Below are positions 1 through 32,814 of a DNA stretch of 38,422 bases, one piece after another. This stretch comes from a virus: IMG/VR virus record IMGVR_UViG_3300030329_001399, positions 1-38,422 of that record, one strand, 5' to 3'. The notes beneath the pieces are model-generated. The model saw nothing but the letters and a program-made list of their open reading frames with translations, searched no databases and had not been told where the DNA came from. Both the position numbers and the translations under genes were made by a program. Numbering within the stretch: the first letter of the stretch is position 1; every line of letters starts with the position of its first letter.

Positions 1-1548
1 TTGGCCGGAATAAACAAGGTCGCAGACACGGTCAAGGTGACTCTTGGGCCGAAGGCTCGCAACGTTGTCCTTGAGCAACGTACTACATTCCCCATCATCC
101 TCAACGATGGTGTGACGATTGCAGGTGCAATCCACGACGAAGACCCCTTTGTCCAAATGGGTATCAGTCTGATACAACAAGTGGCCTCCGAAGCACAGGG
201 AGTAGCCGGTGACGGCACGACCACGGCAACGGTCATTGCACAACATTTAGCCAACAAGGGCTTTGAGATGGTGACAAAGGGCGCAGACCCAATCACTCTC
301 AAGAATCAGATTGACTCGGCAGTCGAGACAGTATGTGGTACTCTTGAAGATATGGCGACACCCGTGGAATACTTCGACGAAGCAAAGGGTTCATTGAGAG
401 CCATAGCGACAATCGCGGCCAACAATGACGATGAGTTGGGCCGTCTGATTTCCGAGGTATTCAAGGAAGTTGGGGAGAAAGGGATTGTTACTTTGGAAAA
501 CGGTAACACTACTGAAACGCACTATTATACAACCGAAGGAATTGAAATCGACAGTGGCTTCCTTGCCCCTATTATGATTACAAACTTCGATACAATGACG
601 TGTGAAATGGAGCGGCCTTTGATTCTACTTACTAACGAGGCTATTGACAATTTCAATGATTTGGTTCCGGCTCTTGAGTTATCGGTGCAAAGTAACCGAC
701 CACTGTTTATCATTGGAGAGGCGTTGAGGGGCAACACATTGCCCACTCTATTGGCTAACGTGGCACAAGGTCACGTCAAGGCTTGCTTCGTTAAGGCGAC
801 AGGTTGGGGAGAGGACCAAAATGATACTCTACGTGACCTCGCGGCCTTGACCGGAGGTAAGTTTTTCGACAAGACACTGTCAATGAATATCAAAGACGCC
901 GAGGAAGATGACTACGGTTCATGTTCAAGAATTAGCGTGTCGAGCAAAAAGACTACAATTATTGCTGAACACACACCTGAAGAGCGAGAAACCTTCGACC
1001 TATATTTGGAGACATTGGCGGCGGCGGCAGATATGGCTGACCACGAATGGACCGAAGCGAAAATCAAGGGTCGTATCGCCAAACTCACAGGTGGTGTGGC
1101 AATCATCCGAGTCGGTGGTAACACGCAGGTCGAAGTGGCTGAGAAAGTAGAGCGTCTTGACGACGCACTCAACGCTACGAAGGCGGCTATCGAATCCGGT
1201 TATGTTGTTGGCGGTGGGGCCGCGTTGGCCCTCGCCGTTGACCAATCTCCGTTCGATGAGGAAGATGACTTCCCCAACGACGGGCAGAGTCTTGTCATTG
1301 AGGCGTGTGAAATCCCCGCCCGCTTAATCGCGGAGAATGCGGGTCGTAATTACCTTCGCGCATACCAAACTGAAGACGGTGGGGTGCAAGGTCTAAACGC
1401 TAAGACGAATCTGTACTGTAACTTGATTGACGCGGGTGTCATTGACCCTGTGAAAGTAACGACATCGGCTCTTCGGTCGGCGGCTTCAATCGCAGGTCTA
1501 ATCTTGATGACAGAAGCGGCAGTACCACTAAGGGAGTTGACCGAGTAG
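1..1548 (+). CDS. groL: Group I (GroEL-type) chaperonin, 5' end cut by window edge
   Basis: Hsp60-family ATP-driven folding chaperonin, probably used to fold viral (or replace host) proteins in the cytoplasm. The visible 515 residues align in order with bacterial GroEL and not with the archaeal thermosome: the N-terminal VKVTLGPKARNVV block at about residues 12-24, the nucleotide-binding GDGTTT at 70-75 (D71 corresponds to the GroEL loop Asp), the DALNATKAA...GGG block from about residue 388, and the C-terminal VIDPVKVTTSALRSAASIAG. GroEL has about 20 residues before the point where this frame starts, so the first codon (TTG) is probably internal and the true start lies left of the window. 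The usual Gly-Gly-Met tail is absent; it ends LRELTE. The next gene follows after a promoter-like element. Confidence 0.93.
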   Translation: MAGINKVADTVKVTLGPKARNVVLEQRTTFPIILNDGVTIAGAIHDEDPFVQMGISLIQQVASEAQGVAGDGTTTATVIAQHLANKGFEMVTKGADPITLKNQIDSAVETVCGTLEDMATPVEYFDEAKGSLRAIATIAANNDDELGRLISEVFKEVGEKGIVTLENGNTTETHYYTTEGIEIDSGFLAPIMITNFDTMTCEMERPLILLTNEAIDNFNDLVPALELSVQSNRPLFIIGEALRGNTLPTLLANVAQGHVKACFVKATGWGEDQNDTLRDLAALTGGKFFDKTLSMNIKDAEEDDYGSCSRISVSSKKTTIIAEHTPEERETFDLYLETLAAAADMADHEWTEAKIKGRIAKLTGGVAIIRVGGNTQVEVAEKVERLDDALNATKAAIESGYVVGGGAALALAVDQSPFDEEDDFPNDGQSLVIEACEIPARLIAENAGRNYLRAYQTEDGGVQGLNAKTNLYCNLIDAGVIDPVKVTTSALRSAASIAGLILMTEAAVPLRELTE

Positions 1549-1571
1549 TTTATATCCTAAATGCTATCAGG
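1549..1571 (+). promoter_or_regulatory. Family A promoter: TATA box plus TGCTATCAGG
   Basis: TTTATAT at 1549-1555 directly follows the chaperonin stop, with TGCTATCAGG at 1562-1571. The TATA start lies 32 nt before the GTG at 1581, close to the spacing expected for an archaeal leaderless or short-leader transcript. The same two blocks at the same spacing recur at 2763 and 7914. Confidence 0.7.
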
Positions 1572-1580
1572 AGAGAATAG

Positions 1581-2686: not shown

Positions 2687-2757
2687 GGGGCGTAGTCTAA
2701 CCGGAAGGACACCGGCATGGTTGCCGGAGAATGGTGGTTCAAGTCCACCCGCCTCCA
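2686..2757 (+). tRNA. tRNA with 6-nt anticodon loop (possibly Thr, GGU)
   Basis: The cloverleaf folds by eye. Acceptor arm 2686-2692 pairs with 2750-2756 (7 pairs, one G-U). D arm GTCT/GGAC (one G-U) has loop AACCGGAA that keeps the conserved GG. Anticodon stem CCGGC/GCCGG is perfect. Variable region is AGAAT. T arm GGTGG/CCACC is perfect with loop TTCAAGT. Discriminator is A2757 and CCA is not encoded. The anticodon loop is only ATGGTT (2717-2722), six bases where seven are normal. If T2718 is U33, the anticodon is GGU (Thr). A lost base or a decayed gene is possible, but every stem is intact. Confidence 0.75.
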
Positions 2758-2762
2758 CTATC

Positions 2763-2785
2763 TTTATATCCAAAATGCTATGAGG
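2763..2785 (+). promoter_or_regulatory. Family A promoter: TATA box plus TGCTATGAGG
   Basis: TTTATAT at 2763-2769 and TGCTATGAGG at 2776-2785, between the tRNA and the clamp gene. The TATA box starts 30 nt before ATG 2793. The GAGGG inside the second block could also be a ribosome-binding site, although transcription starting about 25 nt downstream of TATA would leave it off the mRNA. Confidence 0.72.
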
Positions 2786-2792
2786 GATTAAC

Positions 2793-6221: not shown

Positions 6222-6445
6222 GCAAACTTCAAGTGTCACGGAACGAATGTAGTAACATGAGCGAAGGCGAACACCTTAAATACGACTTCGTGTGCTACTA
6301 CTGTTTGAGGGCAAAGGAAGCAAGCAGTCTTAGCCATTTCGACCCATTGGATGTAGCAGATGAATACAGTGAGATTGTGCCGGTGTGTATAGATTGTGTG
6401 TATAGTATGAACCTCGGAGAACAGGAGATAGAAGAAGATGAGTGA
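6212..6445 (+). CDS. 77-residue zinc-ribbon protein
   Basis: ATG 6212 lies inside the last codons of polB (10-nt overlap) and is preceded by a strong G-rich ribosome-binding site (AGGGGGGAATG, 6199-6209). Two Cys pairs, CYYC and CIDC, are separated by about 30 residues that include SHFDPLDVADEY, and the tail is acidic (EQEIEEDE). The layout is that of a four-Cys zinc ribbon. Co-translated with polB, so a replication or transcription accessory is likely, but no specific family is recognised. Confidence 0.75.
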   Translation: MALSKLQVSRNECSNMSEGEHLKYDFVCYYCLRAKEASSLSHFDPLDVADEYSEIVPVCIDCVYSMNLGEQEIEEDE

Positions 6446-6767
6446 TATTTTGAGGCCGGGGACCGGCGGTAAAAGATTCAAGAAGCAAGCGACTAAAAAT
6501 CAATTGATAGAGCAACGATTGGAAGATTTGGAAACGAACATTGGTCAATTCGCCCGTGCGGTTGGCAATGATATGCAAAGATTTCAAGCCTTAATAATGG
6601 CTTTGATGAATGATTTGGGGCGTGTCGATATTTACGACTGCCCTGAATGCAAAGAAACCGGTATTTGGGTTCCGGTTCTTTCTTCATTGGACATAGAGCC
6701 CGATTGTCCCTCTTGTGGGGCTGAATTGGGCGAAGATGATTTGGCTTCAGATGAAGAAGAAGAGTGA
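6438..6767 (+). CDS. Coiled-coil plus zinc-ribbon acidic-tail protein
   Basis: 109 residues. Residues 20-60 are predicted helical with heptad-like hydrophobics (LIEQRLEDLETNIGQFARAV), followed by CPEC ... CPSC at about 69-92 and a strongly acidic end (DEEEE). ATG 6438 overlaps the previous stop by 8 nt (ATGAGTGA). The basic N-terminus (GGKRFKKQATK) opposed to the acidic C-terminus suggests a nucleic-acid-binding adaptor. No named family recognised. Confidence 0.72.
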   Translation: MSDILRPGTGGKRFKKQATKNQLIEQRLEDLETNIGQFARAVGNDMQRFQALIMALMNDLGRVDIYDCPECKETGIWVPVLSSLDIEPDCPSCGAELGEDDLASDEEEE

Positions 6768-6771
6768 ATGC

Positions 6772-6783
6772 TTAAGTATCAGA
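6772..6783 (+). promoter_or_regulatory. Family B promoter, TTAAGTATCAGA
   Basis: TTAAGTATCAGA begins five bases after the preceding stop codon and 39 nt before ATG 6811. It is identical over 12 bases to the minus-strand elements at 23307-23318 and 31989-32000. Confidence 0.6.
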
Positions 6784-6810
6784 ACAAGTGTAGCAGGTTT
6801 AGTGATTGAT

Positions 6811-7086
6811 ATGTCCCGTGTATTGGTTGTTGGAGACGAAAAGGCATTGGGCGCGGCTTTGAAGAAGTACGGCGCAGAAAACGTTTGGTGGGCGGTCCGT
6901 GAAGGACCTGAAACCCGACCCATTGCTATGCGAGTTGGACTCGCAACCCACCACTACGCGGGCCTCCTTGAAAAAGGCGAATGCTCTGAGGAAGACTACG
7001 ATGTAGTCCTCGGATTGGAGAAGCCCGAACCAAAGAAGGAATCCAAACCTGCCGCAACCAAGAAGGCGGCGAAGAAGGATGACTGA
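6811..7086 (+). CDS. 91-residue protein of unknown function with Lys/Ala tail
   Basis: Start ATG 6811 (MSRVLVVGDEKALGAALKKY) is preferred over the longer frame at 6715 because it follows the TTAAGTATCAGA element and avoids overlap with the preceding gene. The N-terminal strand-helix (RVLVVGDEKALGAAL) resembles the first beta-alpha unit of a Rossmann-like domain, but the rest is too short to support one. The C-terminus is a low-complexity Pro/Lys/Ala tail (KKESKPAATKKAAKKDD), as in proteins that bind DNA non-specifically. The stop overlaps the nuclease start by 8 nt. Confidence 0.65.
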   Translation: MSRVLVVGDEKALGAALKKYGAENVWWAVREGPETRPIAMRVGLATHHYAGLLEKGECSEEDYDVVLGLEKPEPKKESKPAATKKAAKKDD

Positions 7087-22205: not shown

Positions 22206-23276
22206 TCACAGTTTGTGCATTTGGATTGTGCCATTTGCCCAATCGTTGAAGACTGTCTTTGACATTGCGTTAGCAGGGTTCGCTCCATCTGAGTCGTAAA
22301 GAGCGGTGAAGTTCATACTCATAGTCTGTGTGTCACGACTACTTACGCTCGACGTAACCGCTTCCCATCGTACCTTGTACAAGTCAATAGTGCATGGGCT
22401 TGTACCGTCTGTAATAAGAAGTTGAATTGCGTAATCATCGGATGCCGCTTCGGGGTCCATTGTTAGACCACCTGAAGTAATCATCTGTGTATATGTTGGT
22501 TCGCTTTCGACTGCCGAGTGGATGACTTTAGCAAACTCAATGCTTCCTGTAATTTCTCTCATACCGGGAGTTGGTTGACGAACGTAAGTCACACTTCCCA
22601 AAGCACACGCATTGTCTGTATCAAGATTCATATTCCAATCAATGCTGATGGACTTAACGAGTGTGCTTGCCTGAGCATCTTCGTTGAACTTCACACTACA
22701 TTGGCGGAAGTGCAAAGCGTCAACACCTGCGCCACAAAAGGTGGGCGTGGCTAACGTTGCTACGGCAGACTCACTCTTACCAACCCAATCGCTACTTACC
22801 ATAACGTATTCACCGAGGTTTGCGCTTAGACCCAATCGGTTCAAGCACATACCTTCGTATTTATGTTCTTTTTCATCACGACCTACGTGGATTGTGTAAG
22901 AAGGCAAAGATTTGTTTGTGACTTCTGTAAATGTGTGTTCCCCTGTGCTTACTGCGGGCTCTCCACCATATACACCGTAAAAATGTGCCGCCATAAACAT
23001 ATCAGGTTGCATAGCAAACGATAGACTTCCTTCTGAGTATTCCTTGCCTTGTTGGCTTTTTGCCGCTCCGAACCGCGACATATCTGCTCGATACATTACT
23101 TCAAATTGGTGACTAATTGACTCGTCGTCAACTTCACCCCCAAGATAAGTTGCGCTTTTTGCAGAGTTATATGCGTTCATTCCCGATGCGGTCCCGTATG
23201 TTGCCGTCTGATTTGTTTGGTTTGTCGTCTGTTCCGGGGTAAGGAAGACGTAACGATTTGCGAATTGGTCAGCCAT
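22206..23276 (-). CDS. Major tail tube protein
   Basis: 356 residues, beta-rich, with features of siphovirus tube proteins: an N-terminal arm (MADQFANRYVFLTPEQ), a central SISIDWNMNLD-like strand at about 215-225, REITGSIEFAKVI near 250, and a C-terminal strand set QTMSMNFTALYDSD with TIQMHKL at the end. It lies immediately upstream of the chaperones and tape measure. ATG 23276 is chosen because AGGTGA lies five bases upstream; the GTG nine bases earlier is part of that ribosome-binding site. A family B promoter lies 31-42 nt upstream, consistent with high demand for this protein. Confidence 0.85.
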   Translation of the reverse strand: MADQFANRYVFLTPEQTTNQTNQTATYGTASGMNAYNSAKSATYLGGEVDDESISHQFEVMYRADMSRFGAAKSQQGKEYSEGSLSFAMQPDMFMAAHFYGVYGGEPAVSTGEHTFTEVTNKSLPSYTIHVGRDEKEHKYEGMCLNRLGLSANLGEYVMVSSDWVGKSESAVATLATPTFCGAGVDALHFRQCSVKFNEDAQASTLVKSISIDWNMNLDTDNACALGSVTYVRQPTPGMREITGSIEFAKVIHSAVESEPTYTQMITSGGLTMDPEAASDDYAIQLLITDGTSPCTIDLYKVRWEAVTSSVSSRDTQTMSMNFTALYDSDGANPANAMSKTVFNDWANGTIQMHKL

Positions 23277-23306: not shown

Positions 23307-23318
23307 TCTGATACTTAA
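23307..23318 (-). promoter_or_regulatory. Family B promoter, TTAAGTATCAGA (minus strand)
   Basis: TTAAGTATCAGA on the minus strand, in the gap of 45 bases between the terminator gene and the tail tube start, 42 nt before ATG 23276. The longer match TGCTTAAGTATCAGA is shared with 6769-6783 on the plus strand. Confidence 0.62.
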
Positions 23319-23321
23319 GCA

Positions 23322-26821: not shown

Positions 26822-28605
26822 TACAATACCTCCATGATACTTAAGAACGTTTTGTTTAACGCACTACCATCCAATTCCTTTCCTGAACCACCATTATGAT
26901 ATGCAAAAAGTTGTATATAGTCATTTTTGCTTAGATTTAACAGTATTGTTCCTGTTGAGGGCCACCCTGAATCTTTAGCGTAAGGGCCAAAGGTTATCGC
27001 AGAACCGTTAACTTGTACTTGAGCAAGTGCTATATGGGATGATGAAATAAGCCTTATGGAAGCCGAATATGCGATGAGGTATTTACCGTCACGCGGCACA
27101 GTCCATTTGTAATTTGAGCCTCCTGAAGTCCATGCGCTCGCAGTATCAAAATCTGTCGTATCAAGCGCACATAGAGTATATGCGCCACTCGCAAAACTAC
27201 TTACGCTTGATGCCAACCTAAAGTGAGCCGTGTGTGCTTGGAACTTAGAGTCCTGTGTTAATGGACTACGATAAACGCCGGGGGCTACTTGTGAGAAGTT
27301 CCATGAACCTAAAACTTTTGGTGGTTTTACACAATTTATTTCTGCCGAGTGTGTGCTTGTTGTGTAACCGGGGCCTCTCAATACGCACCCATCACCAACC
27401 TCAAGTGTCTCACAGTGAAGTACCTCGCCTTCAAGTAAATTGACTATATGCCCCGCAGTATTCGCAGTAAACTTATATTTTCTAATTGTGCATTTGAAGC
27501 GAGTCTCAGACCGACCGTAATTGTTAGAATTGTTTAGTGGGACCTTTATTGTAGTTCCGGTATCTCCTATAAATCCCCACTCAGCGTAACCGCCGTCAAA
27601 GGCATCAGTATTACAAGCAAAGGTCTTTACTTTGAACTTTTTTGCTCCGTCTGTGCTTTCATTTGTTGCGTTTGAGTTTGGTCTAAACTCAGGGGGGTTG
27701 GATGCCCTATACGCTATATTCATTGTATCGAAATACGCCACCCCGTCATCGTAGTAATCAAAGGTAGTAGAAGAAGGAGCAACATATTCGGGGGAAAACA
27801 CAACTGATGAACCCGACGCCGCATTTAATTTAGTATGAGGGTGTGGGCCATCATCAAACTTCAACGGGCTTTGTGTTTGGGCAAAAACATATTGTAAGGC
27901 GTTTAAGTCACCTGTTATTTGTGCGTATTGTCCGTTGAGAACCATTCGGGTGCTATATGCCAAAGCGGAACCATAAAGCCCTCCTGAAGCAAAATCACCT
28001 TTTGCAGACGTGTTCGTAGCAGGGGTTGTAGTAAATGTAATTGAACTTGAATCACCTTCGATATTTCCATTTAGATACAAACCTTGCCTAATGGTTATTG
28101 CGGCACTTTGGAGAAATAAAGTCCCCGCGAATGTGCTATGGACTTCAATGGATGATACGTCAAATCCATCGGGGGGCATACAATATGTGACTTTACGTAT
28201 TTTTATTGTGCCTGAACCGCCATCTGTTATATCAATTGCCGTACCTGCGGCGGCATTAACGGCATTTGTCGCTAACTTAATTCTATGTGTGCTTGCATTT
28301 ATGACATAATATGTTGTTCGTTCGGAAAAAGGAATAGGCACACTACCTTTTTCTCCGTCTAATGATGCTTCATTGGCACATTCAATCCATACGGGGTCTT
28401 CTGTTGAGAATCCGTGGCTTGTAATGGCAAGTTCGTTGCTACTTACGCTCACCGCGGTTACACTTTCTAATTTTGTTCCACCGTCTAAAATTGCAGTATC
28501 ACTTGTCCCCGGTGCGGAACCACCACTCCCTCCCGAAGAAGTTGACCAATTGGCCGCATCTGAAGCATCTGCGCTTGTTCCGCCAACCCAATATCTGACT
28601 GCCAT
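26821..28605 (-). CDS. Virion fibre/spike protein with C1q-like tip
   Basis: 594 residues. The start MAVRYWVGGTSADASDAANW, with GGSGGSAPGTSDTAILDGG, is a recurrent N-terminal module of phage appendage proteins (RYWVGG..). A beta-helix-like middle follows, with many short Ser/Thr/Gly-rich strands. The last about 140 residues (HFRLASSVSSFASGAY, then YKWTVPRDGKYLIAYSAS, VQVNGSAITF and NKTFLSIMEVL) have the layout of a C1q/TNF-like trimeric jelly roll. It is probably a head fibre or neck appendage, since it is encoded among head-tail connector genes and not by the tail tip. Confidence 0.75.
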   Translation of the reverse strand: MAVRYWVGGTSADASDAANWSTSSGGSGGSAPGTSDTAILDGGTKLESVTAVSVSSNELAITSHGFSTEDPVWIECANEASLDGEKGSVPIPFSERTTYYVINASTHRIKLATNAVNAAAGTAIDITDGGSGTIKIRKVTYCMPPDGFDVSSIEVHSTFAGTLFLQSAAITIRQGLYLNGNIEGDSSSITFTTTPATNTSAKGDFASGGLYGSALAYSTRMVLNGQYAQITGDLNALQYVFAQTQSPLKFDDGPHPHTKLNAASGSSVVFSPEYVAPSSTTFDYYDDGVAYFDTMNIAYRASNPPEFRPNSNATNESTDGAKKFKVKTFACNTDAFDGGYAEWGFIGDTGTTIKVPLNNSNNYGRSETRFKCTIRKYKFTANTAGHIVNLLEGEVLHCETLEVGDGCVLRGPGYTTSTHSAEINCVKPPKVLGSWNFSQVAPGVYRSPLTQDSKFQAHTAHFRLASSVSSFASGAYTLCALDTTDFDTASAWTSGGSNYKWTVPRDGKYLIAYSASIRLISSSHIALAQVQVNGSAITFGPYAKDSGWPSTGTILLNLSKNDYIQLFAYHNGGSGKELDGSALNKTFLSIMEVL

Positions 28606-30038: not shown

Positions 30039-30950
30039 TCACGAACGCACACCCGTCAACTTGTAAATCCTATTGCTTGTGTTAGCCGAAGCACCATCTT
30101 GGTGTTCGTGGACAACAGTACCCCAATACGAAGTTAGAAGCCATGAGTAACCGACACCTTCGATTCGGGTCAATTCTGTTTCCATGAAGCCCTCTCCATT
30201 GTATTGGAAGTATTCAGCAGTCTCTCCGCCGGGAATCATAAGTAGTGCATCGTTACCGATTGCACTTGATGTACCGTAGTCACGGGTGTACTTGATGCTG
30301 ATTTTACCGATTCGTGCCATGTGGTCGCTTAGTGATTCAACAACGTTTCCGTAAAGTTGTGTGTTCAACATTGCACTTCGCTTGTCAGCAGGTAGAACAA
30401 GAGCAAGGCCCTCGTCACCGCTTACACGGGCGTTAGCAAAGATAGCGTCCATTGCGGTTAGCAAGTCGCTCTCTTCGTCAGCAGTTGCGCTACCGAATGT
30501 TGCGGTTGCGGCTCCTGATTGACCTGCACCTGCGTAAACTGCGGACAAAACGTTGTTGTCGATTGCATCTGCGCGAGCGCGGACAATTGCCATCTGTTGG
30601 CGGTCAAGGTTTTCCCATGACTCACCGCGTAGGCGTACTGAATCGAGGAATACACATCGACCCTGTCCCTTCTGCAATTGGCATAGGTAGGATTCGCTTC
30701 CAACCTTGGTTGGGTCGACAACTGCGTTGTCATCAATTGGGTAGGTGAATGTTCCATTAACACCGGTGTACCACTTGTAGGTCATCCACGGAACGGTGCG
30801 AACACCGACGAGGTCTGTTGCGATAGCAATGGTGGTTGATTGTAGTTGGACGAAGTCACGGAGCGTCTGCTCAAGGACTGCGTCACCGGTTCCGAAAGGA
30901 CCGTCAACCGCTTGCACGTTCATAATTTGTTCTAATGATTGATTGCTCAT
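30039..30950 (-). CDS. Major capsid protein (HK97 fold)
   Basis: 303 residues, placed between the scaffold/decoration genes and the head completion genes. The N-arm helix MSNQSLEQIMNVQAVDG leads into E-loop-like strands (VPWMTYKWYTGVNGTFTYPI). The spine-helix region RGESWENLDRQQMAIVRARADAIDNN is followed by the P- and A-domain sequence (GLALVLPADKRSAMLNTQLY, IGNDALLMIPGGETAEYF). Start ATG 30950 with GGAAGTGAG upstream is preferred over the in-frame ATG 30971. The ending WLLTSYWGTVVHEHQDG... RIYKLTG is typical of the closing beta strands. Identification by position, size and pattern. Confidence 0.83.
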   Translation of the reverse strand: MSNQSLEQIMNVQAVDGPFGTGDAVLEQTLRDFVQLQSTTIAIATDLVGVRTVPWMTYKWYTGVNGTFTYPIDDNAVVDPTKVGSESYLCQLQKGQGRCVFLDSVRLRGESWENLDRQQMAIVRARADAIDNNVLSAVYAGAGQSGAATATFGSATADEESDLLTAMDAIFANARVSGDEGLALVLPADKRSAMLNTQLYGNVVESLSDHMARIGKISIKYTRDYGTSSAIGNDALLMIPGGETAEYFQYNGEGFMETELTRIEGVGYSWLLTSYWGTVVHEHQDGASANTSNRIYKLTGVRS

Positions 30951-30981: not shown

Positions 30982-31446
30982 TCAGGCGTTCTCCCCGATT
31001 TCTGCGCTATTGGTGGCAATGGCAATCATCATACCCTGTGTCGCACCTGTGTCGCCCGCTTCGTTTGCGTCAACGAGCGCAGGTGTGGCTGAGGACATAG
31101 TTGGTCCGACATAGATTCCGATTTTCTTGTCGGAACCCGCGGTTTTTGTCACAAGGCCATTTGCTCCGGCGTATGCGAGTTCGCCGGTTTTCCATGTTTC
31201 GCCGTTTAGTGCCTGAATCATTAGGACACCACCCAACGGGTAGAAAGCGACGGTTGCTCCTGTCGCTTCGTAAGCGTTATCTTCTCCTCTTGAGCCTTCA
31301 CCGGCTGATACGCCGAGTGCAAACTTAGCGGAGGTTCCGAGCAATGCTCGGTCGTCAGATTGGTCGAAATAAATAATCTTTCCGGGTCCTTTGACGTATT
31401 CGCCATCTTTCAATGCTACGTTTCTTGGTTGTGTGTAACTTGTCAT
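30982..31446 (-). CDS. Capsid decoration/stabilisation protein (DUF2190-like)
   Basis: 154 residues with alternating short strands (VALKDGEYVKGPGKIIYFDQ, FALGVSAGEG, ATVAFYPLGGVLMIQALNGE, TGELAYAGANGLVTKTAGSD). This pattern of G-rich repeats with one YAGANG..T block resembles small capsid cement proteins such as those of the DUF2190 group. It lies between scaffold and major capsid genes, where decoration proteins are usual. GAGGAAGTGA precedes ATG 31446. Confidence 0.68.
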   Translation of the reverse strand: MTSYTQPRNVALKDGEYVKGPGKIIYFDQSDDRALLGTSAKFALGVSAGEGSRGEDNAYEATGATVAFYPLGGVLMIQALNGETWKTGELAYAGANGLVTKTAGSDKKIGIYVGPTMSSATPALVDANEAGDTGATQGMMIAIATNSAEIGENA

Positions 31447-31458
31447 TTAATCACTTCC

Positions 31459-31950
31459 TCATAGGTTTTCCTTTACTTTTTCGTATGGTTCTGCCTTCAT
31501 GCCTTCAGCGACTTCAAGACCCGATAGTGTTCGGTTCCATGCTGAAGCCCAAGCATTGTAAGCGCGAGCGTAAAGAGTCTCGTCGCTTTCAACAAGTGTG
31601 CCGTTGAGGTAATTAGCGACAACGGCCTTTGGCTCTTCGCTTGCTTCAACGGTTGTAGTTGGTTCGGAGGTCGCGGGTACTGCGGCCTCAAAAGTTGGTC
31701 GTGAGGATTCCCAAGATGCAATCATGGTGTTTAGAGTTTCGCTACTGAACTCTTCGTGTCCCTTTAGGCCCATCTCTGAAGCCTTTTGGACGAGATTCAT
31801 GCGCTCTTCTTCTGCGCGAGCGTCTTCAGCCGCCTTAAACTCAGCGATTGTTGCCTCTTGCAGAACCATTGATGCCTTGAGAGCCTCGATTTCAGCCACA
31901 AGGGCCTCGCTCTCATCATTATTCATTTCGATTTCATTTTCGTCGGACAT
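31459..31950 (-). CDS. Nested in-frame scaffold protein
   Basis: 163 residues starting at the internal ATG 31950 (MSDENEIEMNNDESEAL), in the same frame as the protease. AAGGAGGC at 31958-31965 lies 7 nt upstream, which is the strongest ribosome-binding site in this neighbourhood and would be pointless inside an ordinary coding region. A TTAAGTATCAGA element is 50 nt upstream. The product is an acidic coiled-coil scaffold, as lambda Nu3 is to C. The 3' end is shared with the full-length gene. Confidence 0.68.
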   Translation of the reverse strand: MSDENEIEMNNDESEALVAEIEALKASMVLQEATIAEFKAAEDARAEEERMNLVQKASEMGLKGHEEFSSETLNTMIASWESSRPTFEAAVPATSEPTTTVEASEEPKAVVANYLNGTLVESDETLYARAYNAWASAWNRTLSGLEVAEGMKAEPYEKVKENL

Positions 31951-32781
31951 TTTATTCGCCTCCTTGCGGCAGTCAGCCTTAGCAACGGTCTGATACTTAA
32001 ATGTTATTTCCTCCTCGGCTAACTGAACATTCTCTTCAGGAATCTCTTGTTCCTCGACCGCGACCTCAATTTTCCGCACCTCCTCTATATTCGCCCGCGT
32101 ATAGGCGGGTCGATAGACGATTGCCAAATGGTCAAATGTGAAATCGGAACCGAAGACAACACCTTCTTCCGACTCTACGTCGGGAACGCCGTAGCCCCCA
32201 ATGGAGACACCGAAGTCTCCGCGAGTCCAAAGACCGGATTCAAGAGCCTCAAATAATTCTGCCCGCACAACGTGTGCGACATACCGAACATTCCATCCGG
32301 CTTCTACTTCTTCAACCCATGCTTCTTTGATTGTGCCGACTACTGCTTCTTCAACACCACCATCCATGTTTCGTGAAAACCCAAAGGTATCGGGTTCAGG
32401 ATGGTGTAGTGTCAGGTCCGCACCAACCATTTGGTTAACAACATTCTGAACACCTGCGCGAGAAATTGCCCAATTGTTCTTGTTGAATCCTTCATGGAAT
32501 GCAATGCCACTAATTTCGATAATGGTTTTGCCTGTTGATGCTTCAACGACCGTGCGGGCTTCGTCCACATCTAATTCGATAGTAACGGAAATGGCTTGGC
32601 ACTTTCCGTCCTTAAACTCTTCACCGGGACCACAAGAAGGTCTGTTTTCTTCGACGTATGCTTTTGCATAACATTCACCTGCCTTTTCACATTTAGCCGC
32701 AGTCTTACAAGTAGGACAGACTGAAAACTCAGCCTCTTCTGCCTTTTCGGCTTCTAAAGAACCTTCGCAATCGCATGACAT
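31459..32781 (-). CDS. Prohead protease-scaffold fusion with Cys-rich N-terminus
   Basis: 440 residues. Residues 1-62 have eight Cys (C3, C5, C22, C25, C31, C37, C50, C61), including CPTC and a CGPGEEFKDGKC block, unusual for a maturation protease and possibly metal-binding. Residues about 65-235 form an HK97-type serine protease: LTLHH at 123-127 (catalytic His among them) and FGVSIGG with S193. The C-terminal part is an acidic, helical scaffold (SEALVAEIEALKASMVLQEA) that begins at M278. The start is ATG 32781; the ribosome-binding site is weak. The protease would remove the scaffold once the prohead is built. Confidence 0.82.
   Translation of the reverse strand: MSCDCEGSLEAEKAEEAEFSVCPTCKTAAKCEKAGECYAKAYVEENRPSCGPGEEFKDGKCQAISVTIELDVDEARTVVEASTGKTIIEISGIAFHEGFNKNNWAISRAGVQNVVNQMVGADLTLHHPEPDTFGFSRNMDGGVEEAVVGTIKEAWVEEVEAGWNVRYVAHVVRAELFEALESGLWTRGDFGVSIGGYGVPDVESEEGVVFGSDFTFDHLAIVYRPAYTRANIEEVRKIEVAVEEQEIPEENVQLAEEEITFKYQTVAKADCRKEANKMSDENEIEMNNDESEALVAEIEALKASMVLQEATIAEFKAAEDARAEEERMNLVQKASEMGLKGHEEFSSETLNTMIASWESSRPTFEAAVPATSEPTTTVEASEEPKAVVANYLNGTLVESDETLYARAYNAWASAWNRTLSGLEVAEGMKAEPYEKVKENL
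31989..32000 (-). promoter_or_regulatory. Family B promoter inside the protease gene
   Basis: TTAAGTATCAGA on the minus strand, within the codons for FKYQT of the protease linker. The TATA-like part starts 50 nt before the internal scaffold ATG 31950, so a transcript beginning about 26 nt downstream would carry the AAGGAGGC site and then scaffold, decoration and capsid genes. Confidence 0.62.
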
Positions 32782-32814
32782 AGCATATTGCAGTTAACAC
32801 GCGACTTATCAAGG

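Follow-up and report, generated by a model that had tools for sequence, protein, structure and literature searches.

In bacteriophage lambda, C is a ClpP/S49-type protease, the scaffold Nu3 is set by translation, and the genes run in the order protease/scaffold, decoration, and capsid; the main scaffold of T4 is encoded by a separate gene. In herpesviruses, UL26.5 begins inside UL26 and shares its C-terminus (PMC12474303, PMC4498786), and it has its own internal promoter according to Liu and Roizman 1991, as cited in PMC4498786; in Marek's disease virus, a TATA motif lies 24 bp before the mapped start (PMC10284419). Magroviruses (Magrovirales, viruses of Poseidoniales) carry PolB, GroEL, HK97-type head genes, and opposing clusters of replication and virion genes (PMC10768690). 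One magrovirus survey lists just a prohead serine protease, and neither a promoter nor a nested scaffold was found described for magroviruses in the literature searched. Nested protease/scaffold genes are already known; what we add, on strong comparative evidence, is a conserved internal promoter-like element in uncultured tailed viruses that are probably archaeal. To our knowledge, an internal promoter for a nested scaffold was previously known only from herpesviruses.

We analyzed the window, a stretch of 38,422 nucleotides of viral DNA (IMG/VR record IMGVR_UViG_3300030329_001399, positions 1 to 38,422), for which a sequence-only reading had proposed a scaffold nested in the protease gene with transcriptional and translational signals of its own. 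The claimed signals and frame were located on the minus strand, with TTAAGTATCAGA at 31989-32000, the ribosome-binding site at 31958-31965, the ATG at 31950, and the shared stop at 31459.

Predicted protease-scaffold frame and neighboring genes

The coding features considered here are the following.

32781..31459, minus strand: full-length protease-scaffold ORF, 440 aa, stop common to the nested product
31459..31950, minus strand: nested acidic product, 163 aa, 17.9 kDa, pI 4.25, beginning MSDENE
31948..31950, minus strand: internal ATG (Met278 of the full-length frame), Met in 152/152 relatives
30982..31446, minus strand: head decoration protein (phrog_122, E 1.6e-5), directly downstream, with its own Shine-Dalgarno (SD) sequence
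30039..30950, minus strand: major capsid protein, HK97 fold, SD present, promoter element absent upstream
22206..23276, minus strand: tail tube (major tail) protein (PF18906 Phage_tube_2, E 4.5e-17)

Judged from predicted models, the N-terminal domain is a capsid maturation protease with the T4 gp21/herpes assemblin fold. In an AlphaFold model built on 45 family members, this domain was confidently placed at about residues 83-240 of the 440-aa ORF, followed by a disordered linker at about 260-286 (full-length numbering, pLDDT <50) and a C-terminal part made of a 49-residue helix (288-336) and a small terminal domain. T4 gp21 was the best solved-structure match of the predicted protease domain (Foldseek probability 1.00, VIA Z 11.5), and the proteases of VZV, PRV, EBV, HCMV, and KSHV matched with Z of ~8-10.9. 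S193, H127, D217, and H218 were invariant (n = 45 sequences) and provide the candidate Ser/His of a prohead protease. At the sequence level, the 440-aa protein of the window had no match in Pfam or PHROGs, a few relatives weakly matched head maturation protease families, and the herpesvirus protease family was absent from the Pfam matches of the 45 members at E 0.1. No protease homologues were found in the GTDB genomes searched, and neither the protease nor the capsid protein had a match in the annotated phage collection. All complete relative ORFs formed one fused protease-scaffold frame. Extra N-terminal modules preceded the protease in L001, L002, L005, and L007-L009 (e.g., KVTLNKPFRT...GDPNMEIKRDDP...RKNFRSRHNCD), and the window protein had none of these. 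From position, charge, and structure, we infer that the acidic coiled-coil C-terminal part is the scaffold.

The decoration protein also matched Phage_cement_2, with an E of 6.5e-4 that is below the family's cut-off, and the predicted capsid fold matched encapsulins, T4, HK97, and HFTV1. Window genes further included PolB, an ERCC4 nuclease, and a chaperonin of the Cpn60/TCP-1 family, a content consistent with a magrovirus; among the PolB matches listed, the best were haloarchaeal tailed viruses at ~24%. The virus is probably archaeal and magrovirus-like, sharing with magroviruses PolB, a GroEL-type chaperonin, HK97-type head genes, and opposing gene clusters.

The nested start and its Shine-Dalgarno sequence

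31958..31965, minus strand: AAGGAGGC, SD of the nested start, anti-SD duplex -12.0 kcal/mol

We aligned 152 ORFs from 2 viral-contig scans, some of them sharing a contig (mean pairwise identity 52%; 72 non-redundant ORFs at 90%; 20 clusters below 60% identity). The search for a homologue lacking the internal ATG, which would have spoken against the nested start, returned none, all 152 retaining it, whereas at most neighboring linker positions the commonest residue occurred in only 17-70% of sequences. The residues after this Met were typically [ST][DE][DE], and the nested products of relatives were 149-177 aa long with a pI of 4.12-4.78.

At the nested start, the gap from AAGGAGG to the ATG is 8 nt. 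This motif alone is unremarkable in the window (6 found vs 3.8 expected). Across 45 non-redundant sequences, anti-SD pairing with the 16S 3' end averaged -7.96 kcal/mol at the internal Met, compared with -2.86 kcal/mol in a synonymous-codon null (replicate sd 0.29) and -2.96 kcal/mol at 833 other in-frame Met codons, and pairing of -5 kcal/mol or lower was found at 96% of internal Mets vs 19% of the other Met codons. In 52 further distinct sequences the mean was -7.77 kcal/mol, with 98% at or below -5. The SD region encodes KEA, KET, KVS, or TVN, while its nucleotides stay AAGGAG, GGAG, or GGTGA; because the encoded amino acids differ, it is the nucleotide signal that is conserved, and the Val codon at the site was GTG in 30/32 cases vs a background of 12%. 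The expectation that the SD would be conserved beyond amino acid constraint was thus borne out, and by these sequence comparisons conservation of the internal start far exceeds chance.

The TATA-like element inside the gene and elsewhere

32802..32812, minus strand: TTGATAAGTCG, TATA-like element, 31 nt before the ATG of the full-length protease
31991..32001, minus strand: TTTAAGTATCA, putative internal TATA-like promoter element, with the nested ATG 51 nt downstream
31970..31973, minus strand: predicted transcription start of the nested message, inferred from the spacing at protease starts, leader ~21 nt
23309..23319, minus strand: CTTAAGTATCA, intergenic element copy, 43 nt upstream of the tail-tube start

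In relatives, the internal element was found ~48-57 nt upstream of the internal ATG with the consensus TTTAWRDVTCA, preceded by a G-A/C-A-A-C stretch, and it often departs from the canonical archaeal TATA box, as does TTTAAGTATCA. Its codons (TTTATA/TTTAAGTAT + TCA) are constrained at the nucleotide level, with Phe as TTT in 28/29, Ile as ATA in 20/22 (29% background), Lys as AAG in 18/19, and Tyr as TAT in 22/23 cases, and in the extended set Phe as TTT in 50/51, Ile as ATA in 25/29, and Asn as AAT in 15/16. The encoded peptide differs by clade (FKYQT, FIGHS, FISHS, FNSH) and the nucleotide pattern persists. Columns 275 (SD) and 262 (TATA) ranked 1 and 3 of 364 in codon bias, a rank that by itself is no proof because some invariant protease residues (e.g., D217) are biased too. 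A matrix built from tail-tube sites scored 10.25 on the internal element vs 6.32 after synonymous resampling (0/2000 as high), with an excess also in 18 divergent clusters (<65% identity), in a test that is partly circular, since the tail-tube sites were those that scored highest with the internal matrix. For this reason, a purely positional matrix from 30 nt upstream of protease starts was also applied; it gave 4.87 vs 3.78 (2/2000 as high), a weaker yet supportive result, and in all such tests the relatives are non-independent by kinship, so that test sizes are inflated. Conservation of the TATA-like codons beyond the amino acids, the other expectation of the sequence-only reading, held against the synonymous null and in the preference for Ile ATA. 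The proposal that the internal product has signals of its own stands in that the element is kept in relatives, and it is corrected in that the element is longer (TTTAWRDVTCA) and is shared by the upstream regions of the tail-tube gene and of the full-length protease. On these patterns, the conserved element looks like a separate promoter inside the protease ORF.

The full-length protease ATG of the window has no SD. Among protease starts of the M[SG]C type in relatives, the element was located at 30-34 nt in 18/21, 10 of them at exactly 30, and at starts carrying it the SD was mostly weak or absent. In the gene calls of 7 records, 6/7 element matches at SD-less genes fell at 27-32 nt, whereas those at SD genes of the same records were spread, with the largest share at 39-50. 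With a spacing of 30-34 nt, transcription would begin on the protease ATG or no more than a few nt from it, which suggests that the full-length message is leaderless, as messages commonly are in archaea. The protease starts of L061 and L067 depart from this pattern, having a strong SD (AAAGGAG) but lacking the element at 30 nt. Leaderless messages are also suggested for low-copy late proteins of this virus family. Applied to the internal element, the 30-nt spacing predicts a start at ~31971 and a leader of ~21 nt containing the SD.

Within the window, the 10-mer TTAAGTATCA occurred 4 times vs 0.12 expected, a number reached in 0/100 shuffles. One copy, at 23309-23318 (minus), is the intergenic one ahead of the tail-tube start. 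Upstream of the tail-tube gene, an element score of at least 8 was found in 16/20 genomes (mean 9.98 over all 20), and the best site was at -43 to -49 in 19/20; exceptions were L115 (best site -30) and the low-scoring L110 and L114 (only 3.1). The element variant sometimes tracks the internal one within a genome, e.g., TTGATAAGTCA with TTGATAAGACA (L028/L100). Regions upstream of capsid genes had no element (mean score -0.40, n = 80; random stretches 0.22). On the plus strand, GCTTAAGTATCAG at 6771-6783 directly follows the stop of the gene at 6438-6767 and contains a 10-mer copy (6772-6781); the ORF listed at 6715-7086 (plus) probably starts at the ATG at 6811, ~40 nt past this copy. The 10-mer copy at 26835-26844 (minus) overlaps the end of a 594-aa gene and is unclear as a promoter. 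Each genome's own element showed no excess in the 4-kb flanks (0.20 per locus vs 0.21 for control elements), a matrix scan of the whole window showed no excess over the Markov background, and the gapped pattern TTWAWRDVTCA...ATG in 12 records had few non-internal sites; the loose motif alone fails to predict promoters because these gapped-pattern counts were similar to those of controls. In these sequence scans, only the exact 10-mer and the location of a site with respect to starts are informative. A different box, TTTATATCC, was observed at ~1545-1580 (plus) and 2755-2792 (plus), upstream of the replication-side genes 1581/1590 and 2793, and possibly marks early promoters as a class of their own, apart from the late TTTAWRDVTCA element.

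Phages are known to nest products by translation, and nesting of this kind alone, as in lambda C/Nu3, would have the SD and ATG used on the long message and the TATA-like stretch serving as peptide coding. The SD and ATG are indeed the strongest signals at the locus, but the codon choice of the element is constrained beyond its amino acids, the peptide changes among clades while the nucleotide pattern stays, and the element recurs in intergenic DNA ahead of the tail-tube gene and near protease starts of the leaderless type, which makes this account unlikely. The conservation could instead lie at the protein level, with the TFKYQT-like peptide being a release (R-type) site at which the scaffold is cut from the protease; the peptide sits in the linker, where herpesviruses have their R site, and Thr260 and position 264 are partly conserved as protein. 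Against this, the amino acids vary at every position, the codons are biased toward TTTATA/TTTAAGTAT, and the intergenic tail-tube copies lie outside any protease frame. We regard a release site as the explanation of the element as improbable, although release-site and promoter roles in the linker could coexist. A third account, in which a purine-rich stretch happens by chance to precede an internal Met that is never used, would agree with the near-chance frequency of AAGGAGG in the window, and it is extremely hard to reconcile with a Met in 152/152 sequences and SD pairing in >95% of the non-redundant ones. We consider it highly probable, from the sequence patterns, that the locus combines a weak leaderless message for the fusion with a strong one, started internally, for the scaffold, decoration, and major capsid proteins.

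Proposed expression and comparison with known systems

With 2 promoters, one gene would yield 2 co-C-terminal proteins. A TATA-type late promoter just upstream of 32781 would give a leaderless or near-leaderless, SD-less, low-output message for the protease-scaffold fusion, and the codons of the disordered linker (32001-31991) would contain another late promoter of this type. Its message would begin at ~31971 and have a ~21-nt leader whose strong SD directs free scaffold from the ATG at 31950. Beyond the scaffold, this internal message would also cover the decoration and major capsid genes, each with an SD but with no promoter element of its own; the high-copy shell proteins (scaffold, decoration, and capsid) would thus be produced in larger amounts than terminase, portal, and protease. 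As part of the fusion, a few protease molecules would enter the scaffold core, and the protease would later cleave the scaffold.

The suggested parallel to lambda C/Nu3 applies to the in-frame nesting of a scaffold with an SD, sharing the C-terminus of the protease, and to the gene order; it does not extend to the protease, whose predicted fold is that of T4 gp21/assemblin and not ClpP/S49, or to the promoter element present here. T4 gp21 is alike in protease fold and differs in its separate, not fused, scaffold. Herpesvirus UL26/UL26.5 (UL80/UL80.5) is the closer parallel because it combines the T4 gp21/assemblin fold with an internal TATA promoter. Common to both are an assemblin-type fold, a C-terminal in-frame scaffold, a shared stop, and an internal Met; the internal promoter from which herpesviruses make their more abundant scaffold would have its counterpart in the one predicted here from sequence. 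Unlike the herpesvirus system, this locus belongs to a probable archaeal virus, with SD-driven initiation and an apparently leaderless full-length start, and its internal message seems to continue into the decoration and capsid genes. Sequence similarity between the herpesvirus proteins and the window protein was undetectable, and since the herpesvirus protease family of Pfam was unmatched, we describe the locus as working like UL26/UL26.5 and do not file it as a member. In the haloarchaeal virus HVTV-1, the protease (gene 119, L194:7934-9847) likewise ends in a long acidic C-terminal extension, with MGDNESES as an internal sequence, for which a comparable SD or element was not established.

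That archaeal tailed viruses and herpesviruses inherited an internal TATA promoter and nested scaffold in common is doubtful; if true, UL26/UL26.5-style scaffold transcription would be older than herpesviruses and would have its origin in transcription of the archaeal type. Deep conservation of a promoter-like element at the corresponding place in a probable archaeal tailed virus family offers a testable link between the 2 branches of HK97-fold viruses, and it opens a view on how the ratios of capsid proteins are set in archaeal viruses. For uncultured marine viruses, it also gives a calibrated late-promoter motif with which transcription units may be predicted.
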